A DNA stretch of 34,070 nt from Candidatus Limnocylindrales bacterium. GTDB taxonomy: Bacteria; Desulfobacterota; Binatia; UBA1149; CAITLU01. The translations under genes and the position numbers were made by a program. Below are positions 4,996 to 26,670 of the stretch, piece after piece; within the stretch, counting starts at the first letter, position 1, and the number at the start of each line of letters is the position of its first letter. The stretch covers positions 1 through 34,070 of the forward strand of contig DATNBU010000005.1 in the NCBI GenBank assembly GCA_035571835.1, in the 5' to 3' direction. The notes under the pieces were generated by a model that saw only the letters and a program-made list of their open reading frames with translations, did no database searches and was not told where the DNA came from.

Positions 4996-7221
4996 CTATT
5001 TCCCGCCCGTCGCGTGCCATTCGAGTGCGCCGAGCGGATTGGAAAAATCGTCCGTCCACGCACGCTCGAGATGCTCGCTGACCGGCTTCCATTCCGGCGG
5101 AAGCGCGCGTCCCTCGTCGGGGCGTGCCAGGATCATCCACGTTGAAGCGCTTTTTCCTTCGCGCTCGTCCTGGTCGCGAAGCTTGAGGTCCTCGAACGCG
5201 TAACCGTCGAACCCGGACGGCTCACCGACGCTCTCCAGCACCGGCTGCAGCCGGAAGAAGCGGTTCGAGATGTGGAACAGCATCACGCCGCTCGGCGTCA
5301 GGTGTTCCGCGTACGTCGCGATCGCCTCTTTGGTGATCAGGTGAAGCGGGATCGCATCCGAGCTGAACGCGTCGACGATGATGATGTCGTAGCGCTTGTC
5401 TCCGCGCTCGGTGATCGAAAGGCGCGCGTCGCCGAGGATGATGTCCTTGCGCGCCGCCGGCGAGTTGGTCACGAACGTGAACAGGCGCGGGTCGCTGGCC
5501 ACGCGCGCCATCGTCGGGCTGAGCTCGAACAGATCCCACTCGTCGACCGGCCGCGCATAACAGGTGAGCGCGCCCGAACCGAGACCGATCAGCGCAACGT
5601 GCATCGGCGGCGAAGTCGCCGCCGCGGCCGTGAGGTATCGACCCGCCGGACCCGCCGGATGATAGTAGGAAACCGGATGGCAGCCGGACATTCCGCTGAC
5701 CCGCTGCATGCCGTGAACGGTCGAGCCGTGCACGACCCGGTGGAACTCACCGGTCTCGTCGATCGTCACCCGCACCCGTCCGAAAAAACTTCGCTCGGCG
5801 AAGATCGAGTGCCCGAACGGCGACGGCAGCAGAACCGACGTTGCAATCAGCGCCGCGAGCCGCGTCGCATAGACGGTCCCGCGTTCGTTGCCGGCGAGCG
5901 TGTAGAAGGCCGCCGGCAGATACGGCAGCGCCGGTCCGAAGACGCTGTCGGGAGAGATCCGCGTCGCCAGCGGCGTGCCGACCAGCACGAGCGCAGCCGG
6001 AACGACGACGTCGAGCACGCGGCTGAGCGCCGACCGTGCGCCCGGGCTTCCCGGCACCATCACGATCGATGCGAGCACGAGCGCAACCGGATACTCGACG
6101 AGCCCGTCGGTCAGAAGCGGCGGAACGAGCAGCGTGACGAGGCCGCCGACGGCGCCGCCGACCGAAATGGCCAGATAATACTGCGGCAGCAGCGCCGGCG
6201 GCGGCTGCAGCGCCGTAACCCGCACGTGGCAGAACAGGCAGCAGTAGAAGAACACGATCAGGTGCAGCGGAATCAGGAAGATCGCCGGGGAGTTGGCCTC
6301 GGCGCACAGCGTGACGACGACCGCAATCAGTGCGAGCGACGACAGGCGCGCCAGCAGGTTCGGCAGCGGATAGAGCGGCCGCCCGAACGCCACGATGAAC
6401 GTTGCAAGATAGATCGCGAGCGGAATCGTCCAGAAGAACGGAATCGATGCGATGTCGGTCAGGATGTAGCTGGTGACGCTCAGCAGCAGGCTGGCCGGGA
6501 CCGCGGTAAGGCCGATGATCTTCGCCCACTCGACGCCGCCGGAAGTCAGGTCGACGTCGGTTGCGAGCGCAGCCGGCGCGGGCTGCTCGCGGCGAAGCAC
6601 GCCGCCGAACGCGACGATTGCAGCGGCCACCACGACCAGCAGCGCGAGAAACACCGTTCGCTGCGCGCCGAGCGAAAGCTCGGGCTCGAACAGCAGCGGA
6701 TAGGCGAATAGCCCGAACATGCTTCCGGCGTTGCTCGCAGCATAGAGGCGGTACGGGTGCGCAGCCGTCGGATGCGACGAGCGTGCGAACCAGCTCTGCA
6801 CGAGCGTCGTCAGTGCCGCGAGCGCGACGAACGGCAGCAGCGCGTTGGCGACAAGCCACCCGACCAGCAGCCTGAGCGGTGCGTCGGTTACGTGCGGGAG
6901 ATGGACGACCGAGCCCGGATACGCGACGAACAGCGTCGCGAGCACCGCAAGCTGGACCGCGATCTGCGCGGTAAGGCTCGCAAGCCGCGTCACCGCGAGT
7001 GCGTAGAGGTAGCCGACGAGCAGCGCCACCTGGAAGAACACCATGCACGTGTTCCACAGCAGCGGCGTCCCGCCGAACGACGGCAGCAGGATCTTCCCGA
7101 CGTACGGCTCGAACGCGAAAAGAAGCAGCGACCCGAGGAATGTCGCCGTCACCGCCAGCCACAGCGCGAGGCGACCCTTTGTATTCGTCGCCGCGTCCAC
7201 GGCCGGCGCGGCCAGGCTCAC
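4996..7221 (-). CDS. Membrane-anchored spermidine-synthase-like protein (MFS-like membrane region plus aminopropyltransferase fold)
   Basis: A 741-residue fusion. Residues 18-470 form a polytopic membrane region with about 12 hydrophobic spans. The family motif EPYVGKILLPSFGGTPLLWN is at 38-57, and AERSFFGRVRV...HGSTVHGMQ lies near 475-506. The C-terminal 250 residues are a spermidine-synthase-like Rossmann domain: PVSYYHPAGPAG near 516, the nucleotide loop LIGLGSGAL near 544-552, DLFELSPTM near 563, IILGDARLSI near 594, and IIVDAFSSDAIP near 613-624. Classical enzymes transfer an aminopropyl group from decarboxylated SAM to a polyamine; fused membrane forms are mostly uncharacterised. Its ATG overlaps the stop of the arginine decarboxylase gene by four bases, which strongly supports a polyamine role. 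Confidence 0.8.
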   Translation of the reverse strand: MSLAAPAVDAATNTKGRLALWLAVTATFLGSLLLFAFEPYVGKILLPSFGGTPLLWNTCMVFFQVALLVGYLYALAVTRLASLTAQIAVQLAVLATLFVAYPGSVVHLPHVTDAPLRLLVGWLVANALLPFVALAALTTLVQSWFARSSHPTAAHPYRLYAASNAGSMFGLFAYPLLFEPELSLGAQRTVFLALLVVVAAAIVAFGGVLRREQPAPAALATDVDLTSGGVEWAKIIGLTAVPASLLLSVTSYILTDIASIPFFWTIPLAIYLATFIVAFGRPLYPLPNLLARLSSLALIAVVVTLCAEANSPAIFLIPLHLIVFFYCCLFCHVRVTALQPPPALLPQYYLAISVGGAVGGLVTLLVPPLLTDGLVEYPVALVLASIVMVPGSPGARSALSRVLDVVVPAALVLVGTPLATRISPDSVFGPALPYLPAAFYTLAGNERGTVYATRLAALIATSVLLPSPFGHSIFAERSFFGRVRVTIDETGEFHRVVHGSTVHGMQRVSGMSGCHPVSYYHPAGPAGRYLTAAAATSPPMHVALIGLGSGALTCYARPVDEWDLFELSPTMARVASDPRLFTFVTNSPAARKDIILGDARLSITERGDKRYDIIIVDAFSSDAIPLHLITKEAIATYAEHLTPSGVMLFHISNRFFRLQPVLESVGEPSGFDGYAFEDLKLRDQDEREGKSASTWMILARPDEGRALPPEWKPVSEHLERAWTDDFSNPLGALEWHATGGK

Positions 7222-9143
7222 GTGCCGTGCACTTCCTCGAGATAGGTGTAGCCGTTGAGGCCTTCCTCGTAGAACTTCAGGAAGCGGCCGGCTTCGAGAT
7301 GGTCGAGGCGACCCGCACGCACGGCCTTGTCAACGGCCACCTGCAGGCGGTGCACGAGCTGCTCCTTCGGGAACTGCACGTAGCCGAGCACTTCGCTGAC
7401 GGTGTCGCCCTTGATGATGCTGCCGATGACGACTTCGCCTTCCTCGGTCAGGTCGACGTGGACCGTATTGGTGTCGCCGAACAGGTTGTGCAGGTCACCG
7501 AGGATTTCCTGATACGCGCCGATCAGGAACGCGCCGAGGTAGTACGGCGAGCCGTCGAAGGTATGGAAGCGCAGCGTGCGCCGCACGTCGCGCCGGTCGA
7601 TGAAGTGGTCGATCTTGCCGTCGGAGTCGCACGTGACGTCGCCGATCACCGCGTGATGGGTCGGCATCTCGTTCAGCCGGTGGATCGGCATCACCGGGAA
7701 CAGCTGCTTGATCGCCCAGCTGTCGGGCATCGATTGGAACAGCGAGAAATTGCAGAAGTACGTGTCCGACAGCATGAGGTCGAGGCCTTCGAGCTCCTCC
7801 GGCACGAACTCGAGCTGCTCGGTCAGCTTGCGGATCTTGCGCAGCGTCGCGAAGAACAGGTTTTCGATCAGGCAGCGCTGGTCGAGCGGAAGATAGCCGG
7901 TCGCGAACTGGTTCATCGCGATGTCGAGAGCCTGCTGCGCGTCGTGGTAGCTCTCGAGCAGGTTGCGCGGCATCAGGCCCTGGTAGGTCTGCAGCAGGTC
8001 GTGAAGCGGCTGCTCGGCGTCTTCCGGCACGGCAAGCGGAATCTCCGCGCTGCCGCCCTGGTCGGCGACTCCGAGGCAGCCGAAGATCAGCGCCGAATGG
8101 TAGGCCGTAAGCGCGCGTCCGCTTTCCGAGATGATGTTCGGGTGCGGCACGCCGACTTCGTCGCAGACGTTCTGGATGTGGTAGACGACGTCGTTCGCGT
8201 ACTCCTCGAGCGTGTAGTTCATGCTCGATTCGAAATTGGTCTGCGAGCCGTCGTAGTCCACTCCGAGCCCGCCGCCGACGTTCATGTATTCGAGGCCCGC
8301 GCCGCGCTGGTAGAGCTCGGTGTAGATGCGCGCCGCCTCGATCAGCGCGGCCTTCACGTGCCGGATGTTCGTGATCTGGCTTCCGAGGTGGAAGTGCAGC
8401 AGCTTGAAGCAGTCGCCCATGCCGCGGCTCTTGAGCTCCTCGAACGCCGCAAGGATCTCGCTGACCGTAAGGCCGAACTTCGAACGGTGGCCGCCCGACG
8501 ACTGCCAGCGTCCGGACCCGCGCGCGGCAAGCTTGACGCGCATGCCGATCTGCGGGCGCACGCCGAGCCGCTCGGCGCTCTTCAGGATCAGGTCGAGCTC
8601 GGTGTACTTTTCGACGACCGGGATCACGTTGCGCCCGATCTTGAGCGCGAGCATCGCCATCTCGATGAACTCGCCGTCCTTGAAGCCGTTGCAGATGATC
8701 GGTGCATTGGCTTCGGTCATCGCGACGACGCAGAGCATTTCGGGCTTGCTGCCGGCTTCGAGGCCGAACCCGTACTCCTTTCCGATCTGCACGATCTGCT
8801 CGACCACGTGGCGCTGCTGGTTGACCTTGATCGGATAGACGCACTGGTAGGTGCCGTTGTACTTGTGATCCGAGATCGCGCGCGCGAACACGTCGTGGAT
8901 TTCCCGCACGCGATCCCGAAGGATTCCGTTGAAGCGCACGAGCAGCGGAAGATCGAGGCCGCGCAGCTGCATCGAGTCGACGAGCTGCTTGAGATCGACG
9001 AAGCGGTTCGGATCCTTCTGGGGATGGCAGAGCAGGTGTCCCGCGGCCGACACCGAGAAGTAGCCTTTGCCCCAGCCCTTGACCTCGTACAGTTCCGCGG
9101 CGTCCTGGGTCGACCAGCGCCGGGTCGCATCGTTCTGCATCAT
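7218..9143 (-). CDS. speA: Biosynthetic arginine decarboxylase
   Basis: A 641-residue PLP enzyme that converts arginine to agmatine, the first step of polyamine synthesis. The length fits SpeA. The PLP lysine is Lys106 in YPIKVNQQRH. Other hallmarks are GLEAGSKPEML (128-138), HFHLGSQITNIRHV (250-263), the phosphate-binding GGGLGVDYDGS (290-300), SESGRALTAYHS (339-350), and CDSDGKID (505-512) with the conserved catalytic Cys. ATG 9143 is preceded by AAGGTG seven bases upstream; a second ATG follows directly. The frame stays open far upstream, but that part overlaps the opposite-strand FAD enzyme gene and is spurious. No SAM decarboxylase is seen here. Confidence 0.95.
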   Translation of the reverse strand: MMQNDATRRWSTQDAAELYEVKGWGKGYFSVSAAGHLLCHPQKDPNRFVDLKQLVDSMQLRGLDLPLLVRFNGILRDRVREIHDVFARAISDHKYNGTYQCVYPIKVNQQRHVVEQIVQIGKEYGFGLEAGSKPEMLCVVAMTEANAPIICNGFKDGEFIEMAMLALKIGRNVIPVVEKYTELDLILKSAERLGVRPQIGMRVKLAARGSGRWQSSGGHRSKFGLTVSEILAAFEELKSRGMGDCFKLLHFHLGSQITNIRHVKAALIEAARIYTELYQRGAGLEYMNVGGGLGVDYDGSQTNFESSMNYTLEEYANDVVYHIQNVCDEVGVPHPNIISESGRALTAYHSALIFGCLGVADQGGSAEIPLAVPEDAEQPLHDLLQTYQGLMPRNLLESYHDAQQALDIAMNQFATGYLPLDQRCLIENLFFATLRKIRKLTEQLEFVPEELEGLDLMLSDTYFCNFSLFQSMPDSWAIKQLFPVMPIHRLNEMPTHHAVIGDVTCDSDGKIDHFIDRRDVRRTLRFHTFDGSPYYLGAFLIGAYQEILGDLHNLFGDTNTVHVDLTEEGEVVIGSIIKGDTVSEVLGYVQFPKEQLVHRLQVAVDKAVRAGRLDHLEAGRFLKFYEEGLNGYTYLEEVHGT

Positions 9144-12392: not shown

Positions 12393-12430
12393 TATACCGG
12401 CAGTATACTCTTGCATTGGCGTATACCGGC
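12393..12430. promoter_or_regulatory. Candidate TetR operator and promoter
   Basis: TATAC-CGGCA-GTATA (12393-12407) is a perfect inverted repeat with a 5-base centre. TATACCGGC is repeated in direct orientation at 12422-12430. TATACT (12404-12409) inside the palindrome could be a -10 box. The site lies just before the TetR start at 12448 and in the divergent promoter region of the glycosyltransferase gene, the usual place for an autoregulatory operator. Binding is inferred from position and symmetry. Confidence 0.55.
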
Positions 12431-12447: not shown

Positions 12448-13176
12448 GTGAGCGTCGCCGCTTCCCCGACTCCGATCGCGTCCGGCCGCCGCGAGCGCCG
12501 CAAGCTCGAGGTGCGCCGGCGGATGATCGATGCCGCGCAGGCCCTCTTCGAAGAGCGCGGCGTCCACGCGACCACCGTCGTCGAGATCTGCGAGCGAGCC
12601 GACGTCGCGCACAAGACGTTCTTCAATCACTTCCCGGCCAAGCAGGACCTCGTCCGCGCAATGGCGCGCGAGGCGATCGAGTTCCTCCTCGACGACATCG
12701 CGACTGCGCACGCAAGCGGCCGCTCGACGGCGGGACGTCTCGACGCGTTTTTCGAGAGCGTCGCGACGCGCGCATCGGCGGCGGGCCCGATGCACCGCGA
12801 GCTGATGACCGAGATCATCCATGCCGCACAGGGCGCCGACGAGCCCACCGACGCGCGACGGCTGCATGCGGCGTTCGGTGCGATCGTTGCCGACGGCGTT
12901 CGCGCCGGAGAAGTCACGCGCAAGCATCCGAGCGAGACGCTGACCGAGACGATTCTCGGGATGTATTACGCGCTGATGTTCAACTGGGCGAACCTCGAAC
13001 ATTATCCGATCGCAGCCAGGGCGCGGGCCGCATCGAAGTTCCTCGCGGATGCGCTGGCGCCGCAGGGCTCGGAGGCGAGCCGTCCGAGCGAAGCGGCGGG
13101 CACGGGGCACGCAGCGCGCCCGCGACCGATTCGAAAGAACGTGCCACGCAAGGAGACTCTTCATGGCAAGGCGTGA
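12448..13176 (+). CDS. TetR/AcrR family transcriptional regulator
   Basis: A 242-residue repressor-type protein. The N-terminal HTH domain spans about residues 24-70: MIDAAQALFEERGVHATTVV, then EICERADVAHKTFFNHFPAK, the typical recognition helix and following YYHF-like element, here FFNHF. Residues 75-205 form the helical ligand-binding domain. The tail after 210 is low-complexity and basic. GTG 12448 has AGGG nine bases upstream. Its last 14 bases overlap the Rieske gene, so the regulator heads the catabolic cluster and probably controls it in response to substrate. The inducer is unknown. Confidence 0.88.
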   Translation: MSVAASPTPIASGRRERRKLEVRRRMIDAAQALFEERGVHATTVVEICERADVAHKTFFNHFPAKQDLVRAMAREAIEFLLDDIATAHASGRSTAGRLDAFFESVATRASAAGPMHRELMTEIIHAAQGADEPTDARRLHAAFGAIVADGVRAGEVTRKHPSETLTETILGMYYALMFNWANLEHYPIAARARAASKFLADALAPQGSEASRPSEAAGTGHAARPRPIRKNVPRKETLHGKA

Positions 13177-14128
13177 CAAGGAAAATTCGATCCTGCCGAT
13201 CCCGAACGGCTGGTTCGCCGTCGAGTGGACCAAGGAGCTCATCGCGGGCCAGGTCAAGAGCATCCACTACTTCGGGGAAGACCTGGTGCTTTTCCGCGGG
13301 CGCTCCGGCGAGGCGCACGTGCTCGATCCGTACTGCCCGCACCTCGGCGCGCATCTCGGCGAAGGCGGCCGCGTGCTCGGAGACGGCCTGCGCTGCCCGT
13401 TCCACGGCTGGACGTACGACGGCTCGACCGGCCAGTGCACGTCGATTCCGTACTGCGAGCGGATTCCGGCCAAAGCCGCGGTACGTGCGTGGCCGACGTG
13501 CGAAAAGAACGGAATGATCTTTGTCTGGCATCACAGCGAGGGCCAGGCGCCGACGTGGGAAGTGCCGCTGCTTGCCGAGATCGGTCACGCGGACTGGTCC
13601 GAGCCGCGCACGTTCGAGCTCGAAGTGCCGGTGCACGTGCAGGACATGCACGAGAACAACAACGATCCGGTTCATTTCCAGTTCGTGCACGGAAACCTCG
13701 AGCCGCTGCCGTCGGAAATCTCGTACGCCGCAGACGGGCGTGCCTATCGCATCTCGAGCCGGCAGATCCGCGACACACCGTACGGGCGCTTCGAGACGAC
13801 GCTGATCCGCGATTCGTGGGGCATCGGACTGTCGGCGGTCAGCACCGAAGGCATTCCGAACGCGGGGCTTCTGATGTTCTCGTCGACCAGCCCGGTCGAC
13901 CACGATCGCACGTTCTCGCGCTGGCTGCTGACCGCGACCAACAACATGGTCGACCTTGCCGGCGAGGACTTCATGAACGGGCTGACGACCGGCGTGATGC
14001 AGGACCTGCGCATCTGGTCGAACAAGGTCCATCGCGCGCGGCCGGTCTTGTGCGAGGCCGACACGTATCTCGCCGAGTTCCGGCAGTGGGTGAAGCAGTT
14101 CTACAGCCAGCCCGTGCAGACGCAGTAG
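13163..14128 (+). CDS. Rieske non-heme iron oxygenase, alpha subunit type
   Basis: A 321-residue oxygenase. The Rieske [2Fe-2S] ligands are Cys58 and His60 (YCPHLGAHL) and Cys78 and His81 (CPFHGWTYDG). The mononuclear iron site is in HENNNDPVHFQFVHG, with Asp168, His171 and His176; a C-terminal Asp in MQDLRIW may be the third ligand. The motif context resembles KshA (3-ketosteroid 9-alpha-hydroxylase) and the DAF-36/Neverland cholesterol 7-desaturase group more than ring-hydroxylating dioxygenases, so a hydroxylation or desaturation of a sterol- or terpenoid-like molecule is possible. It would need a separate ferredoxin/reductase, and none is seen nearby. ATG 13163 has AAGGAGA upstream. Confidence 0.88.
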   Translation: MARRDKENSILPIPNGWFAVEWTKELIAGQVKSIHYFGEDLVLFRGRSGEAHVLDPYCPHLGAHLGEGGRVLGDGLRCPFHGWTYDGSTGQCTSIPYCERIPAKAAVRAWPTCEKNGMIFVWHHSEGQAPTWEVPLLAEIGHADWSEPRTFELEVPVHVQDMHENNNDPVHFQFVHGNLEPLPSEISYAADGRAYRISSRQIRDTPYGRFETTLIRDSWGIGLSAVSTEGIPNAGLLMFSSTSPVDHDRTFSRWLLTATNNMVDLAGEDFMNGLTTGVMQDLRIWSNKVHRARPVLCEADTYLAEFRQWVKQFYSQPVQTQ

Positions 14129-14153
14129 GCTTATCGGAGTTCCACGCGGAGAC

Positions 14154-15395
14154 ATGGAGCACGGAGATATCGAGCACGGAGATATGGAAATGGATCGCTT
14201 CCTCGTCATTTCGTCGGATTGTCACGCCGGGCTGCCGCCCGATCAGTACCGCAACTATCTCGATCCGCAGTACCGCGAGTTGTTCGACGTCGCGCTGCCT
14301 CTGCAGATCGCAGAAATGGAAAAGATGTCGAAGATGTTCCTGATCGACGACATCAACCGCAAGTGGCGCGACGAAGTCGGCGACGCCCTGACCGGCGCGT
14401 GGGATCACGACGAGCGCCTGCGCGTGATGGACGCGGACGGCATCGCCGGCGAAATCATCTTCCCCGACGGAATCACCGAGATGAACACGCCGCCGTTCGG
14501 CGCGGGCCTGTCGCTGCCGGTCGAGGACCGCATCGTGCCCGAGCTGCAGTGGGCCGGCGCGCGCGCACACAACCGCTGGCTGGCCGAGCTCGTATCGATG
14601 GCGCCGGCGCGCCGTCTCGGCGTCGCGCTGGTTCCCGCACTGTGGGACGTCGACGAGGCGGTCAAGGAAGTCGAGTGGGCGCGGAAGAACGGGCTCGGCG
14701 GCGTGCTGCTGCCGTGCATGTGGCGGCATCTCGATCCGTACCACCATCCCAAATACGAGCCGCTGTGGTCGGCGTGCGTGGCGAACGACGTCGCGGTGCA
14801 TTTTCATTCGGGCCCCGCGCCGATGGAGGACGCGTTCGGCCCGATCGCCAATCCGGACGGCGTCGTGCGGCCGGGCGCGATGGGCATCTACGTTTCCGAG
14901 GTGGTGTGGTGGGCCGTGCGCCCGCTCACGTTCCTGATCTGGGGCGGCGTGCTCGAGCGGCATCCGAAGCTCCGCATCGCGATCACCGAGAGCACCACGA
15001 TCTGGGCGCCGGAGTATCTCGCGCTGCTCGACCAGCGCTATTCGGAAACGCACTATTCGGCGAAGCTCGGCGACTACCGAAGTCATCTCAAGAGCAAGCC
15101 GAGCGAGTACTTCGCGCGCCAGGTTGCGCTCGGCGCGTCGTGCATGTCACGCCGCGAAGCCGAGCTGCGCTACGCGATCGGGCTTTCGAACATCATGTGG
15201 GGCAGCGATTATCCGCATCCCGAAGGCACGTGGCCGGTGACGATGCCGCAGGTGCATGAAACGTTCGACGGCCTTCCCGAGAACGAAGTCGCCGCCATGC
15301 TCGGCCTCAACGCCGCGCGCTTCTACGGCTTCGACGTCGACGCGCTAGCCCCGATCGCCGCGCGCATAGGTCCTGCAACCGCGAGTTTTAAATAA
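14154..15395 (+). CDS. Amidohydrolase-2 family metal-dependent hydrolase/decarboxylase
   Basis: A 413-residue TIM-barrel protein of the PF04909 type. It shows SSDCHAG (Asp22, His24) after the first strand, HFHSGP (216-221), HPKLRIAITES (270-280), and the catalytic Asp352 in MWGSDYPHPEGTWP. Relatives are ACMSD-type decarboxylases and uncharacterised hydrolases found with Rieske oxygenases in catabolic clusters. It follows the Rieske gene by 25 bases. The start is ambiguous: ATGs at 14154, 14184 and 14190 each have a GGAG-like site, because a 15-bp unit is tandemly repeated here. The most upstream is listed; conservation begins around MDRFLVISSD (14190). The stop is one base from a REP-like element. 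Confidence 0.85.
   Translation: MEHGDIEHGDMEMDRFLVISSDCHAGLPPDQYRNYLDPQYRELFDVALPLQIAEMEKMSKMFLIDDINRKWRDEVGDALTGAWDHDERLRVMDADGIAGEIIFPDGITEMNTPPFGAGLSLPVEDRIVPELQWAGARAHNRWLAELVSMAPARRLGVALVPALWDVDEAVKEVEWARKNGLGGVLLPCMWRHLDPYHHPKYEPLWSACVANDVAVHFHSGPAPMEDAFGPIANPDGVVRPGAMGIYVSEVVWWAVRPLTFLIWGGVLERHPKLRIAITESTTIWAPEYLALLDQRYSETHYSAKLGDYRSHLKSKPSEYFARQVALGASCMSRREAELRYAIGLSNIMWGSDYPHPEGTWPVTMPQVHETFDGLPENEVAAMLGLNAARFYGFDVDALAPIAARIGPATASFK
14157..14186 (+). repeat. 15-bp tandem repeat over the start region
   Basis: GAGCACGGAGATATC (14157-14171) is followed by GAGCACGGAGATATG (14172-14186), and a weaker copy (ACGCGGAGACATG) precedes them at 14144-14156. Each unit carries a GGAG core and two end in ATG, giving alternative start sites for the amidohydrolase. 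Confidence 0.8.
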
Positions 15396-15396
15396 A

Positions 15397-15489
15397 GGGG
15401 ACAGGTACATTTAAAATTCCACTGCAATTCCGCGGCGCGAAAAATAGCGTGCCCGAAATACCACACGTTTTTTAAATGTACCTGTCCCC
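15397..15489. repeat. REP-like composite element, type B copy 1 (93 bp)
   Basis: The ends GGGGACAGGTACATTTAAAA (15397-15416) and TTTTAAATGTACCTGTCCCC (15470-15489) are inverted repeats. The ~53-bp centre includes CGCGGCGCGAAA and CCACACGTTT, both shared with the copy at 26579. The element lies one base after the amidohydrolase stop and 21 bases before the next start, whose AAGGAG site follows directly. It is MITE- or BIME-like and has no coding capacity. Confidence 0.9.
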
Positions 15490-15510
15490 ATTTTTCCAAG
15501 GAGAACAACG

Positions 15511-16308
15511 ATGGGGAAGCTGCGTTACGTCAAGACCTCCGATCAGATTGCAAAGGCACGGCAGAACAATGCGGAGTTCCTCGAGAGCACCGTGCGCTCG
15601 CTGCGTTTCGTCTACCGGACCGATCCCGAGGTGGCTGCGGCGCTCGTGCCGCAGCCGCTCGAGGTCGATCCGGCGTCGCACGTATGCGTGACGTTCTCGC
15701 ACGTCGCGATCCACCTGTCTCCGGACTTCACGTTCGAGATCGGCTCGGCGATTTTCGGCGTCAAGGCATCCTACGAGGGCGTCGCCGGCATCTACCTGGT
15801 GACGATGCCGATGACGACCGAGCAGGCCGTCGTCCCCGGCCGCGAAACCTTCGGCGAGCCGAAGAAGATCGCTGCGATCGAGTTCAAGAAGGACGGCCAG
15901 AACGTGATGAGCGAAGTCACGCGCATGGGGATGACGTACCTCGAGGGAAAGGGAACGATCGGTGCTGCGCTCGGGGCCCGTGAATTCGTCGAGTACGGTT
16001 ACTGCTACAAGGCGTTTCCGGCGTGCGAGAAGAGCCGCGCGTTCGACGGCGATCCGCTTCTGGTGCGGCTCGAGTGGCGCCACAAGCACACCGGAGCGTG
16101 GAAGCTCGACGGCGCTGCCCTCAATCTGTACGACTCGCCGTTCGATCCCGTGGCCGACGTGCCCGTGCGCGAGATCGTCTCGGCGGAATACGAAGAAGGC
16201 AGCGCAGAGAGCAACGGCCGCGTGCTGCGCAGCATTCCCGGCCAGTGGCTGGAGCCGTTCCTGCACCAGCGTTACGACGATACGTCCGGCGACGGCCTCG
16301 AGCTGTGA
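15511..16308 (+). CDS. Acetoacetate decarboxylase family protein
   Basis: A 265-residue protein of the ADC fold. The active-site pair is Lys118-Lys119 in RETFGEPKKIAAIEF, matching the Schiff-base lysine and its neighbour in acetoacetate decarboxylase. The preceding TYR-rich barrel segment (YEGVAGIYLVTMPMTTEQAVVPG) also fits. Family members catalyse decarboxylation or, in ADC-like proteins, aldol-type or hydrolytic reactions, so the exact reaction is open. Its place between amidohydrolase and SDR suggests that it processes a beta-keto acid or related intermediate. AAGGAG precedes ATG 15511 immediately after the REP-like element, so its leader is partly repeat-derived. Confidence 0.85.
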   Translation: MGKLRYVKTSDQIAKARQNNAEFLESTVRSLRFVYRTDPEVAAALVPQPLEVDPASHVCVTFSHVAIHLSPDFTFEIGSAIFGVKASYEGVAGIYLVTMPMTTEQAVVPGRETFGEPKKIAAIEFKKDGQNVMSEVTRMGMTYLEGKGTIGAALGAREFVEYGYCYKAFPACEKSRAFDGDPLLVRLEWRHKHTGAWKLDGAALNLYDSPFDPVADVPVREIVSAEYEEGSAESNGRVLRSIPGQWLEPFLHQRYDDTSGDGLEL

Positions 16309-16317
16309 GGCGCGGCG

Positions 16318-17190
16318 ATGAAGGACTTCCGCGGAAAGACCGCAGTCATCACGGGATCGGCGAGCGGAATCGGCAACGCGCTCGCCCATTCGCTGGCGCG
16401 CGAGGGCGCGCGCGTGGTGCTGGCCGATATCGAACAGGGCGCGCTCGATGCGGCCGTCACTGCGCTGCGTGAAACCGGCGCAGACGCGATCGGTGTGCGC
16501 ACCGACGTGTCATCGTTCGAGTCGGTGCAGGCGCTCGAGAAGGCGGCGGTCTCCGCGTTCGGCAACGTACACATCCTCGTCAGCAACGCGGGCGTCGGTG
16601 CGCACGAGGACGTTCCGGTCTGGGAGCTGCCGCTCAACGACTGGCGATGGTGCATGGCCGTCAACGTCTGGGGCGTGATCCACGGCATCAAGGCATTCCT
16701 GCCGGGCATGCTCGCGCACGGCGAGGAAGGCCACGTCGTGAACACGTCATCCGGAAACGGCGGCCTGATCCTCGTGCCGACGACGCCGATCTATTCCGCC
16801 ACCAAGGCCGCCGTCAGCGCGATCACCGAGAGCCTGCATCTCCAGCTCGCGATGCAGGGCGCAAAGATCCGCGCGCACGTCCTCTATCCCGGTCCTCACA
16901 TCGTCGCGTCCAACATCTTCACGGCGGCGCGAAACCGGCCCGAGGAATTCCGGCGCGAGACCGAGCAGATCGCGCCGCCGATCACGCTCGAAAGCCTCGG
17001 TCAGATTTTCGATGCGATGGGCCGCAAGCTCGAGACGACGTCACCCGCCGAGGTGGCCGAGCACGCAATGGACGGGCTGCGGGCCGACCGCTTCTACATC
17101 CTGCCGTGGACCAGCGACGGGAAGACGAGGTTTCGCGAACGCGTCGAGGGCATTCTCGATTGCCGCAATCCCGAGCCGCGGTTCTTCTGA
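16318..17190 (+). CDS. Short-chain dehydrogenase/reductase (SDR)
   Basis: A 290-residue classical SDR. The cofactor loop is TGSASGIG (12-19), followed by LADIE near 35-39 (the acidic residue at the end of strand 2 suggests NAD preference), SNAGVG (89-94), catalytic Ser144/145 (NTSSGNGG), and the YSATK motif with Tyr159 and Lys163. A C-terminal extension of about 50 residues contains AEVAEHAMDGLRADRFYILP. It probably oxidises or reduces a hydroxyl/keto group in the pathway that begins with the Rieske enzyme. It is nine bases after the decarboxylase-like gene, so the two are probably co-transcribed. Confidence 0.9.
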   Translation: MKDFRGKTAVITGSASGIGNALAHSLAREGARVVLADIEQGALDAAVTALRETGADAIGVRTDVSSFESVQALEKAAVSAFGNVHILVSNAGVGAHEDVPVWELPLNDWRWCMAVNVWGVIHGIKAFLPGMLAHGEEGHVVNTSSGNGGLILVPTTPIYSATKAAVSAITESLHLQLAMQGAKIRAHVLYPGPHIVASNIFTAARNRPEEFRRETEQIAPPITLESLGQIFDAMGRKLETTSPAEVAEHAMDGLRADRFYILPWTSDGKTRFRERVEGILDCRNPEPRFF

Positions 17191-17270: not shown

Positions 17271-18098
17271 ATGGGCGAGGACGTTTCGCGGCCGGTTGCG
17301 TGGCGCGCCGGCATCGCCGGTGCGGCGATTGCGGCTGCCGTCCTGCTGGCCGCGGTTGCGACAGCGTCCACAAACCTGAACGACGCCTCTTCCGACAAAA
17401 TCGAAGCCTCCACGATCGTTCCTGACCCGGTGCGCAGGGTCGGCGAAGTGCGGCTGCTGGCGCGCGGCGACGCCGTGGTCGTGCAGACGCTGCTTTCGAC
17501 GAAAGTGCTGTCGAGAGTGCTGGCGGAGATCGCGAAAAAGGAAGAGCACAACTGGCCGACCGCGCAAAAACTTGCAGACTCCGACGCGGCGCCGGTTGCG
17601 TCCGGCACGACCGAGTATCTGGCCGCGCTCGATGCCGCGCGCCAACGCCTCGAAGCGAGCGCGTCCGATTCCGATTCGCCGGAGCGCCGCCGCCGCGTGC
17701 TGATCGAATTTGCAGCGAGCGCGAACGACCAGGCCGTGTTCGTCGGCACGTTCCAGGCTGCGGGCGACGTCGGGCATCTCGACCTGAAAAGCCGCGAGAT
17801 CTTCTCCACACTGGCGCTGCCGCGCGCGTATATTCTTCGCGAGATCCGCCTGATCCTGGCCGATTCGTTCGACGTGGCGGAAGACCAGGTGGACCGTCTC
17901 GGTCCGCTCGGCCCCGCGGCCTCCGGTGCCGCCACGGGCAGCAGCGCGAGCACGTCGCCGGCGACAATTGCGCCTGCGCCTTCGAACAATGCGAAGCCTG
18001 CAACGTCGACTGGCAGCGAGCCCGCAACTCCTGCTGTGAAAGAACACGCTCCCGATTCCATGGGGTCGCCGCCGACCCCGAAGCCGCGCCAGCATTGA
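17271..18098 (+). CDS. Membrane-anchored protein, unknown function, coupled to RND exporter
   Basis: A 275-residue protein that I do not recognise. An N-terminal hydrophobic span (residues 12-32) acts as signal anchor. The predicted periplasmic part (35-215) is helical and charged, with VVVQTLLSTKVLSRVLAEI near 69-87 and RRRVLIEFAASANDQAVFVG near 138-157. Residues 218-275 are low-complexity Ala/Ser/Thr/Pro, like a flexible tail. The stop overlaps the TTG start of the RND exporter by four bases, so the products probably act together, perhaps as a periplasmic accessory. No clear ribosome site precedes the ATG at 17271. Confidence 0.65.
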   Translation: MGEDVSRPVAWRAGIAGAAIAAAVLLAAVATASTNLNDASSDKIEASTIVPDPVRRVGEVRLLARGDAVVVQTLLSTKVLSRVLAEIAKKEEHNWPTAQKLADSDAAPVASGTTEYLAALDAARQRLEASASDSDSPERRRRVLIEFAASANDQAVFVGTFQAAGDVGHLDLKSREIFSTLALPRAYILREIRLILADSFDVAEDQVDRLGPLGPAASGAATGSSASTSPATIAPAPSNNAKPATSTGSEPATPAVKEHAPDSMGSPPTPKPRQH

Positions 18099-20443
18099 CC
18101 AGCGAACGACTTCGCCGCCTGCGCGCGCCGTGCCTCGCGATCACCCTCGCGATCAGTGCGTGGCTCGGCCTTCATGCCGCACGCATCGGAGTCGAGCACG
18201 ACAACTCGTCCTTGCGCTCGACCGATCCCGCCGACCGCCGCAGCTACGAAGACTTCAAGGCCACGTTCGGCAGCGACGAAGACATTCTCGTCGCCATTGC
18301 GCACCCGCAGCTGCTGGACGCGCGCGGACTCGGCCTGATTGCCGACGTCACTTCGCGGATCCAGGCGATGGACGGCGTCCGCAAGGCGTGGAGCCTCGTC
18401 AACGTCGAAGAGATCGCCAGCGGAGAAACCGGCGCCGAGCCGCACCAGCTGCTGGCTCCGCCGTGGGATTCGCCGGACATCCGCGAGCGCACGCTCGCGG
18501 CGCTCGAGCGCAATCCCGATTTCACGGGCTGGCTCGTGTCGGCCGATCGAAAGACTGCGGGCATCGTCGTCGAGATCGAGGACCGCCCTGACGACAGCGA
18601 GTACCGGGCCCGTCTGGTCGCAAGCATCCGCGCGCTGTCGCCGGATATCGCAGCGGCCGGCGGCGAGATGCATGTGACCGGCGTGCCGGTGCAGAAGATC
18701 GACGTTTCCGAATACGTCGATCGCGATCAGGCCGTGCTGCTGCCGGCAGCGGTCATCGTGCTCGGGCTGACGCTCGCGCTGTTCTTCCGCCACATCTCCG
18801 GCGTCGTCGTCCCGCTCGCAGTTGCCGGCATCACGGTGGTGTGGACAGTCGGTGCATACGCGGCCAGCGGTCATTCGCTCAACGCGATCACTGCGCTGCT
18901 GCCGCCGGTGCTGCTCGTCATCGCGCTTGCGACGACCGTGCACGTTTACGATGCGTGGCTGGCAGGGCACTCGCCGGCCGGTGCACATCCGGACGGGCAC
19001 GGGGGCGACGGGCACGATCGGGATGGTCATGATCCGGACGGGCGCGATGACGCTGGCGGCGAGGATCGCGCCGCGCTTGCCGTGCGCGCCGTCTTCGTGC
19101 CCGCGCTGCTGTGCGCGGTGACCACTGCACAAGGCTTCCTGTCGCTTCTGATCGGCGGAAACCTGCCGGCTGTGCACGAGTTCGGCATCTTCGCCGCATT
19201 CGGCAGCGTGGTCGCGTTCCTCGTCGCAATGACCGTCGTGCCGGTCGCGCTTGCGGGCATCAAGCCGCCCGCGCATCGCGCGTCGGATGCGCACGGATGG
19301 ACGTTCCGGCTTCTCGGCGCGACCTCCGGCCTCGCGACGCGCAGGCCGGTCGCCGTGCTCGCGACGTTCACCGCGGTCACGCTTCTTCTTTCGGCGGGCA
19401 TTCCGCTGATCCGTACCAATACCGATCTCGTCGGCTTCCTTCGAAAAGACGCTCCGCTGCGCGTCGATACGACGTGGATCGACGAGCACCTGGCCGGAAC
19501 GATGCCTCTGGACTTCGTGATCCGCCGAACCGACGGAAAGCCCGTGCTCACGCTCGACGGCGCGCGCCGCCTCGAAGAGCTCGAGCGTTCGATTACCGCG
19601 CGCGAACACGTGGCGAGCGTGACCAGCGTCCTCGCGCTGGTGCGTCAGGTCCATCGTGCCGAGTCGGACGACCATCGTCTGGCGCTTCCCGCGGACGCCG
19701 AAACCCTGCAGGCCGAGATCGATCTGCTCGACGAAAGCGGGCATTCGCTGGTGCGGCGCTTTGCCGCACCGGAGATGACGTCGCTGCGCATGACGGCGCG
19801 CCTGCACGCCGTCGGAAGCGCCGTCTCCGGGCCGCTCGTCGCGGCAATCCGGAAGGATGCGGCGCGTATCCTCGGACCCGGCATCGAGCTGCAGCCGGTC
19901 GGATCGCTCTGGGAGGTCGTTCGCGATTCCGAAACGCTCGTCGATCAGCAGGTGACGAGCTTTGGCAGCGCGATCCTGCTCGTGGTCGCCGCAATCGGCC
20001 TTCTGCTGCGATCGTTCACGTTCACGATCGTCGCGATGATCCCGAACGTGATGCCGATCCTGTGGACCGGCGGGCTCATGGGCTACTCGGGCATCGAGCT
20101 GAGCACCGGCACCGCGATGATTGCGTCGGCCGTGCTCGGCCTCGTCGTCGACGACACGATCCATTACCTCTCGTACTACCGGCGCGTCTACCGCGGCGAT
20201 GCCATTGCGGCGATACGCACGACCAGCCGTGCCATTGGCGCCCCGGTCACGGTGGCATCGACGAGCCTCGTGCTCGGCTTCTGGGTGGGCGCGCTCGGCA
20301 GCTTCCTTCCGACGATTTATTTCTCGCTGCTGACGGGCCTGACGATGATCACCGGCGTCGTCTGCGATCTTCTGGTGCTGCCGGCAAGCCTGGTGCTGCT
20401 CGACCGGATCGGGCGCCGCCGCCGCGATCCGGGCACGGCGTGA
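18095..20443 (+). CDS. RND superfamily (MMPL/HpnN-like) exporter with His/Asp-rich insert
   Basis: A 782-residue inner-membrane transporter with the two-fold RND layout. TM1 is near 14-30, then a periplasmic domain (31-210) and TM2-TM6 (212-410). TM7 lies near 420-440, then a second periplasmic domain (445-625) and TM8-TM12 (630-770). GLVVDDTIHYLSYYRR near 690-705 is the conserved TM4/TM10-type Asp motif for proton coupling. Such proteins export lipids, hopanoids or hydrophobic metabolites. The TTG start overlaps the preceding stop. Residues 291-325, in the loop after TM4, hold an unusual repeat of DGH/DGR units (six His, many Asp and Gly) absent from the equivalent loop of the second half. 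Confidence 0.85.
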   Translation: MTSERLRRLRAPCLAITLAISAWLGLHAARIGVEHDNSSLRSTDPADRRSYEDFKATFGSDEDILVAIAHPQLLDARGLGLIADVTSRIQAMDGVRKAWSLVNVEEIASGETGAEPHQLLAPPWDSPDIRERTLAALERNPDFTGWLVSADRKTAGIVVEIEDRPDDSEYRARLVASIRALSPDIAAAGGEMHVTGVPVQKIDVSEYVDRDQAVLLPAAVIVLGLTLALFFRHISGVVVPLAVAGITVVWTVGAYAASGHSLNAITALLPPVLLVIALATTVHVYDAWLAGHSPAGAHPDGHGGDGHDRDGHDPDGRDDAGGEDRAALAVRAVFVPALLCAVTTAQGFLSLLIGGNLPAVHEFGIFAAFGSVVAFLVAMTVVPVALAGIKPPAHRASDAHGWTFRLLGATSGLATRRPVAVLATFTAVTLLLSAGIPLIRTNTDLVGFLRKDAPLRVDTTWIDEHLAGTMPLDFVIRRTDGKPVLTLDGARRLEELERSITAREHVASVTSVLALVRQVHRAESDDHRLALPADAETLQAEIDLLDESGHSLVRRFAAPEMTSLRMTARLHAVGSAVSGPLVAAIRKDAARILGPGIELQPVGSLWEVVRDSETLVDQQVTSFGSAILLVVAAIGLLLRSFTFTIVAMIPNVMPILWTGGLMGYSGIELSTGTAMIASAVLGLVVDDTIHYLSYYRRVYRGDAIAAIRTTSRAIGAPVTVASTSLVLGFWVGALGSFLPTIYFSLLTGLTMITGVVCDLLVLPASLVLLDRIGRRRRDPGTA

Positions 20444-26578: not shown

Positions 26579-26670
26579 GGGGACAGGTACATTTAAAATT
26601 CCTCTGCATCTTCGCGGCGCGAAAGGCACCGACCTGAAATTCCACACGTTTATTAAATGTACCTGTCCCC
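26579..26670. repeat. REP-like composite element, type B copy 2 (92 bp)
   Basis: The ends GGGGACAGGTACATTTAAAA (26579-26598) and TTAAATGTACCTGTCCCC (to 26670) match those of the element at 15397. The centre shares TTCGCGGCGCGAAA and TTCCACACGTTT with it. It begins three bases after the msrBA stop and ends 12 bases before the alkB-like start, so it forms most of the spacer between these genes. Confidence 0.9.

Follow-up and report, generated by a model that had tools for sequence, protein, structure and literature searches.

We analysed a stretch of 34,070 nucleotides (hereafter the window), which is the entire contig G000:C5 of a 5.46 Mb Candidatus Limnocylindrales bacterium genome (65% G+C, 98% complete), and within it five adjacent genes for a TetR-family regulator, a KshA-type Rieske oxygenase (RO), a PF04909 protein that is probably a dinuclear TIM-barrel monooxygenase (ARO), a protein with the acetoacetate decarboxylase (ADC) fold and a short-chain dehydrogenase/reductase (SDR) (Table 1). 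Together they form an operon that is real, conserved and locally regulated. The original prediction had described five co-directional genes with intact active sites and small gaps or overlaps; the five genes are also complete, and this description stands except that the ARO-ADC gap is 115 bases long and has a repeat inside it; the other spacings are -14 bases (TetR-RO), 25 bases (RO-ARO, or 61 from the start at 14190) and 9 bases (ADC-SDR). Its naming of the TetR, Rieske, ADC-fold and SDR parts also holds, whereas the name amidohydrolase for the third protein does not. The start of that protein is probably the ATG at 14190, because six aligned homologues, with starts from our own gene calling, begin at columns 11-13 of its longer form.

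Table 1 Features of the operon and of related loci
Feature	Position	Strand	Basis or note
Palindrome TATAC-N5-GTATA, probable TetR operator	12393..12407	+	40 bases 5' of TetR start
TetR-family regulator	12448..13176	+	Pfam TetR_N 1.4e-14
KshA-type Rieske oxygenase (RO)	13163..14128	+	Pfam Rieske 4.3e-21, KshA_C 7.3e-26
PF04909 protein, probable dinuclear TIM-barrel monooxygenase (ARO)	14190..15395, ORF possible from 14154	+	Pfam Amidohydro_2 1.9e-28
Inverted repeat element, REP-like, between ARO and ADC genes	15397..15489		half-site count in genome
ADC-fold protein, distinct subfamily	15511..16308	+	PF06314 1e-35
Short-chain dehydrogenase/reductase (SDR)	16318..17190	+	Pfam adh_short 4.2e-46
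SAR86 RO without [2Fe-2S] ligands	L061, L064, L066, L068, L072, L073, L075, L079, L085; about 6780-7940 in most

Related loci were drawn from a sample of 58 related genomes that includes the source genome, from which 14 stretches were cut for neighbourhood comparison, and from a scan of a wider genome collection with the ADC protein, which gave 178 relatives and 80 kept loci: 24 titled Deltaproteobacteria, Myxococcota, Binatia and similar, 22 of SAR86 type and 34 actinobacterial. Counts given for group-1 hits, loci or upstream regions were taken apart from those for SAR86 and actinobacteria and retain duplicate contigs. ADC is matched at 1e-10 in 15 of the 58 genomes, 12 of which have a match below 1e-90. 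The two sets of loci share seven contigs, and with duplicates removed RO, ARO and ADC occur together in 22 loci besides the window; they include L023-L027 and L029 among the 14 cut stretches. This grouping is more than chance, a judgement from the 22 loci made with no formal chance model for gene order, and the gene order, which the original prediction proposed to seek elsewhere, is conserved. None of the 72,556 plasmids searched has a place at least 60% identical to RO, ADC or ARO, so plasmid carriage is not supported.

The RO is KshA-type by Pfam, by sequence profile and by predicted fold; that it is a KshA proper is not established. All four Rieske ligands (C58, H60, C78 and H81) and the iron site (H171, H176 and D281) are present and conserved, and the ligand letters CHCH and NDHHD are kept in 25/25 group-1 hits. 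Against solved structures its profile matches KshA at 4e-48 to 7e-48 and the next kind of enzyme at 2e-23, and its predicted model (pLDDT 89.2) gives fold Z scores of 28.9-30.6 with KshA against 28.0 with dicamba monooxygenase, the next in order. The resemblance to KshA that was proposed at the outset is thereby borne out. As far as tested the protein also does not fall with phenylpropanoid or vanillate demethylases, in a placement by profile and fold that excluded VanA and Neverland sequences. A Rieske tree whose rows include E. coli YeaW, HcaE, an SdmA-like row and KshA5 (4qdc) places the window RO with its syntenic relatives and outside the KshA5 group, although some branches are long and the placing is soft; in the same long-branched tree KshA5 joins a SAR86 paralogue (100/100) and then the window-genome paralogues L124 and L125 (89/82). 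The source genome has five such ROs at E 1e-10. An assignment as the sterol 4beta-demethylase SdmA was rejected: the similarity is weak (4e-19) and the score of 68.8 bits lies far under the cut-off of 600 of the model NF052579. This cut-off is passed by none of the 58 genomes, the nearest being G021 with 409 bits, a relative of the same class in which the SdmA-like gene lies ~2 kb from a squalene-cyclase-type match on contig C4 (L126).

Several lines of evidence indicate that the third protein is probably a TIM-barrel dinuclear-metal monooxygenase of the PtmU3/AibH2 type rather than the amidohydrolase it had been taken for. For AibH2, PMC7782822 gives the metal ligands as Asp25, His27, His211, Glu265, Asp337 and His340, with an acidic residue at 342 that corresponds to Glu313 of PtmU3. 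These ligands align with D22, H24, H218, E279, D352 and H355 of ARO, and E357, two residues after the last histidine, takes the place of the second-sphere acid. The seven sites read DHHEDHE in 25 of 27 group-1 hits and DHHEDHD in the other two, at least one of which, the remote L028 copy of 127 bits, does not adjoin ADC; among actinobacterial hits, 64 of 65 read DHHEDHE and the remaining one is cut off. PtmU3 and DitZ are the first PDB matches in both a single-sequence and a profile search (5.8e-30 and 3.1e-25 by profile), and an AlphaFold model built from 23 rows (mean pLDDT 86.2) places PtmU3 first both in Foldseek and in VIA, whose lists are a re-ranking of Foldseek's own matches (Z 36.5, root-mean-square deviation 2.8, 342 residues aligned). 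It could be argued instead, from the Pfam label, that the protein is a conventional PF04909 enzyme with a single metal, a hydrolase or decarboxylase acting after Rieske attack to open or trim a ring; decarboxylases of the same fold reach a Z of about 31, and the uncharacterised amidohydrolase 4dzi, at 32.4, stands among the other dinuclear oxygenases and DitZ (31.8-33.8). The full dinuclear ligand set and the acidic residue are conserved, however, PtmU3 is clearly first by Z against at most 31.3 for any decarboxylase, and a 5-carboxyvanillate decarboxylase of the family aligns H and Y at two of the seven sites; we regard a mononuclear enzyme as quite improbable. Because an ARO stands beside the RO, the operon would hold two oxygenases of different kinds.

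The other two enzymes are conserved at their catalytic residues. The ADC protein has the lysine pair K118 K119, kept in 91 of 93 hits (the exceptions are pieces of one broken-up copy in L031), and it scores 50.2 bits against the NCBIfam acetoacetate decarboxylase model NF002614, for which the cut-off is 150. The source genome has two ADC genes at E 0.001. In the SDR the glycine motif and N116, S145, Y159 and K163 are present, the N-S-Y-K set recurs in 60/60 hits above 200 bits, and the score of 310.9 bits passes the NF004843 cut-off of 308.

Local regulation is indicated by the TetR gene and by the palindrome in front of it, a probable TetR operator. TATAC-N5-GTATA matches once in the window against 0.02 expected, and it occurs exactly once per genome in the source genome and in two relatives (G000, G001 and G005), each time 5' of the operon's TetR gene; a control pattern has no match in these three genomes or in G007. 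The exact palindrome is also missing from G007, where GTATAC boxes separated by a shorter spacer are found at the TetR-ADC locus. The block around the palindrome is similar in L023 and L024. A gene of the same TetR cluster is found in 17 of 26 group-1 loci, directly 5' of RO in 14 of them, 5' of ADC in L028 and L051 and 5' of SDR in L039. That the regulator represses is assumed from the habit of its family.

The same ADC is accompanied by differing oxygenases in other bacteria. Among the Deltaproteobacteria/Myxococcota/Binatia-type loci, 19 of 24 have RO and ARO together with ADC, and the other five are without both, L054 ending at a contig start. SAR86-type loci have RO and SDR in 21 of 22 cases and an ARO above 200 bits in none; a cytochrome P450 is present in 20/22 by clustering and adjoins the SDR in 18/22 by P450 motif, and one such locus adjoins a TonB receptor and an acyl-CoA dehydrogenase. 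The actinobacterial loci (n = 34) mostly pair two AROs (31 loci, with a single ARO in the other three), and while an SDR is found in 26, a window-type RO is found in none; in six of them (L096, L104, L107, L108, L110 and L114) at most one gene was called, and counts there come from profile matches to open reading frames. Near duplicates aside, the genes flanking the cassette are barely common to the loci. In five actinobacterial metagenome-assembled genomes (L083, L087, L088, L089 and L090) the ADC/SDR/ARO set follows genes from the protein clusters that were annotated, in L083, as a thiamine pyrophosphate-dependent acetolactate-synthase-type enzyme and a ketol-acid reductoisomerase.

We compared distances between proteins across the 23 loci that hold RO, ARO and ADC (duplicates L038, L040 and L049 dropped), using profile columns and 2000 permutations. 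RO and ARO are the best correlated pair (r 0.585, 0/2000 permutations), followed by ADC and RO (r 0.347, 0/2000), and untrimmed open reading frames gave the same outcome. The close tracking of RO and ARO would be expected if the Rieske domain of RO mainly fed electrons to ARO, making one monooxygenase system of the two as proposed for the small Rieske protein AibG with AibH1H2, and two reports state that amidohydrolase-related dinuclear oxygenases often adjoin small Rieske proteins (PMC10811679, PMC10401708). Such an arrangement is nonetheless unlikely, since the catalytic domain of RO and its iron triad are kept throughout the group-1 hits, and each partner also occurs without the other, the SAR86 RO without an ARO above 200 bits in 21/22 loci and the actinobacterial AROs without a window-type RO in 34/34.

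A separate observation concerns the SAR86 relatives of RO, of which 9 of 22 are without one or more Rieske ligands (Table 1) whereas every one of the 22 keeps the iron-site letters NDHHD; L080, among these 22, is a paralogue with intact ligands, and the record that holds the ligand-less L079 is titled complete genome. Among 107 genomes searched in one family, 23 have a match at 1e-100; 21 of these matches are full-length, nine without and 12 with the Rieske ligands and largely from the genomes already counted, and two are partial and do not cover the ligand site. Across 18 SAR86 rows the two types of Rieske domain are 49% identical to each other and 89% and 66% identical within type, whereas the catalytic domains of the same rows are 86% identical between types and 88% and 86% within. 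Comparing L085 with L077, the non-synonymous difference (pN) is 0.42 in the Rieske domain and 0.043 in the catalytic domain, and four pairs of ligand-less Rieske domains have dN/dS ratios of 0.03, 0.07, 0.09 and 0.25, at nearly saturated synonymous sites. The pattern points to two exchanged Rieske-domain types in SAR86, both under selection, with an apparent transfer of the ligand-less type from one SAR86 species to another. A search of 14 SAR86 genomes found one or more additional RO matches at 1e-20 in 13 of them, whether their RO is ligand-less or intact. We found no published work on SAR86 Rieske oxygenases or on loss of the Rieske cluster, nor on the SAR86 ADC, in open-access literature only, which is weak evidence.

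Our preferred reading, to which we give a probability of about one half, is that this is a TetR-repressed operon for the oxidative conversion of an imported compound, probably an acid of terpenoid- or steroid-like kind or the CoA ester of such an acid. RO and ARO would each hydroxylate the substrate, the SDR would convert an alcohol so formed into a ketone in the beta position to a carboxyl group, and the Schiff-base lysine of ADC would then support release of CO2, or possibly cleavage of a C-C bond. Gene content and order, their conservation, the ligand sets, the palindrome and the fold matches are observed, whereas we infer the reactions, their order, the sense of repression, import and the class of substrate, for which the original prediction had also suggested a steroid- or terpenoid-like ring system; a scheme of hydroxylation, oxidation and decarboxylation would fit all the parts as well as the exchange of oxygenases between groups. 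Related sets of genes occur in very different bacteria, and for that reason the operon probably represents a route, not yet studied, by which some ring-like or branched compound is oxidised and trimmed. No published work on a combination of Rieske oxygenase, amidohydrolase, ADC and steroid was found in the open-access literature searched, which is again weak evidence.

A number of observations weigh against this reading. The operon contains no gene for a reductase or a small ferredoxin. Three other PF04909 genes of the source genome (four match at 1e-10 in all) have the same ARO motif, and therefore the motif alone does not single out the ARO gene. Residues near the place of Arg29 of clostridial ADC are not conserved, which makes even the decarboxylation uncertain. 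The exact palindrome is limited to three close genomes; since its loose form is found in 5/26 and GTATAC in 7/26 group-1 upstream regions (duplicates included), it is a trait of close relatives. Of the 19 loci with RO, ARO and ADC, only seven have an SDR of the window's subfamily, and of the 18 SAR86 P450 genes found by motif, five lie on the opposite strand. Finally, the ADC-ARO distances give r 0.155, a value reached by 258/2000 permutations, and ADC and ARO therefore do not clearly track each other.

Two further explanations concern what the cassette is for. The nearest solved structure to ARO is PtmU3, which might suggest tailoring of a natural product instead of catabolism; yet no terpene cyclase or synthase is found among the Pfam-scanned window genes, PF13243, the only such family searched for in the whole genome, has no match there, the flanks of the cassette are barely common to the loci (near duplicates aside), and one SAR86 version has genes for a TonB receptor and for an acyl-CoA dehydrogenase as neighbours. 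We consider this about as improbable as a mononuclear third enzyme. Alternatively, the oxygenases could convert a methyl group of an imported triterpenoid to a carboxyl group, with the SDR making the neighbouring ketone and ADC removing CO2, which amounts to demethylation next to a ketone, as in sterol C-4 demethylation. Each of the three architectures combines an ADC-fold protein with a pair of oxygenases, and frequently with an SDR, and RO has its weak similarity to SdmA; its score so far under the SdmA cut-off makes this route very unlikely. Endogenous sterol or hopanoid making is also unlikely, because the source genome has no squalene-hopene-type cyclase (PF13243) match at E 0.001, where five of ten genomes searched have one, two of them weak, and the low SdmA score is in line with this.

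An oxidative conversion of an imported compound, if correct, would move a gene labelled amidohydrolase into a small and recent class of dinuclear monooxygenases, and would link these enzymes to a compact operon under its own regulator in which their partner is a decarboxylase-like protein, so that a definite reaction could be tested. That different oxygenases are exchanged around one ADC offers a natural handle on the identity of the substrate. More speculatively, and on balance doubtful, the three architectures may represent one unreported pathway in at least three phyla, with ADC (often together with SDR) fixed and two oxygenase slots variable (RO and P450, RO and ARO, or two AROs), in which the SAR86 RO is able to work without a Rieske cluster. 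If so, that enzyme would carry out iron chemistry without need for its own electron donor; the ligand-less relatives would make the need for a Rieske cluster in such enzymes directly testable.

Downstream of the operon lie genes for a 275-residue protein, which has no Pfam or NCBIfam match, and an MMPL/HpnN-like transporter (17271-20443). They were considered as part of the operon and set aside, since they stand beside it in the same-genus L023 and not in L024. The ARO-ADC gap contains two copies of GGGGACAGGTACATTT in inverted orientation, at 15397-15412 and 15474-15489; with up to two mismatches, 99 such half-sites are found in the genome against 0 for a reversed control, and a second inverted pair of the same repetitive extragenic palindromic (REP)-like element lies at 26579-26670. 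Elsewhere in the window, a 741-residue open reading frame on the minus strand (4996-7221), beside an arginine decarboxylase gene, has no Pfam match at E 0.001.

The operon can be compared with several known systems. SdmA and SdmB carry out sterol C-4 demethylation and share with it the logic of a Rieske oxygenase and a dehydrogenase; they differ in that the window RO is far under the SdmA cut-off and the source genome is without a cyclase match. Acetoacetate decarboxylase (PDB 3bh2) is alike in family and in its Schiff-base lysine pair, but the window protein stays under the NCBIfam cut-off for that enzyme. KshA, the oxygenase that works with KshB in 3-ketosteroid 9alpha-hydroxylation (PDB 4qdc, 4qdd and 2zyl), has the same Rieske and KshA_C domains and the same ligands, with KshA5 as the best fold match (Z 30.6, 27% identity); the window RO is shorter (321 residues) and stands outside the KshA5 group in a soft tree, and the scanned window genes include no further one recognisably tied to steroids. 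DitZ of Rhodococcus rhodochrous (PDB 8uyr), for which an open-access search by title and abstract found no literature, is the second-best profile match to ARO and reaches a Z of 33.8. AibH1H2 and SfbO share the ligand set and the fold (Z about 33.5) and adjoin a small Rieske protein, whereas ARO adjoins a full RO, its operon contains no further PF04909 gene, and the scan of called window genes showed no small Rieske protein next to it. PtmU3 (PDB 6omp), a TIM-barrel diiron monooxygenase of platensimycin biosynthesis, is closest to ARO in metal ligands and fold (28% identity), but ARO sits in an operon with RO, ADC and SDR.

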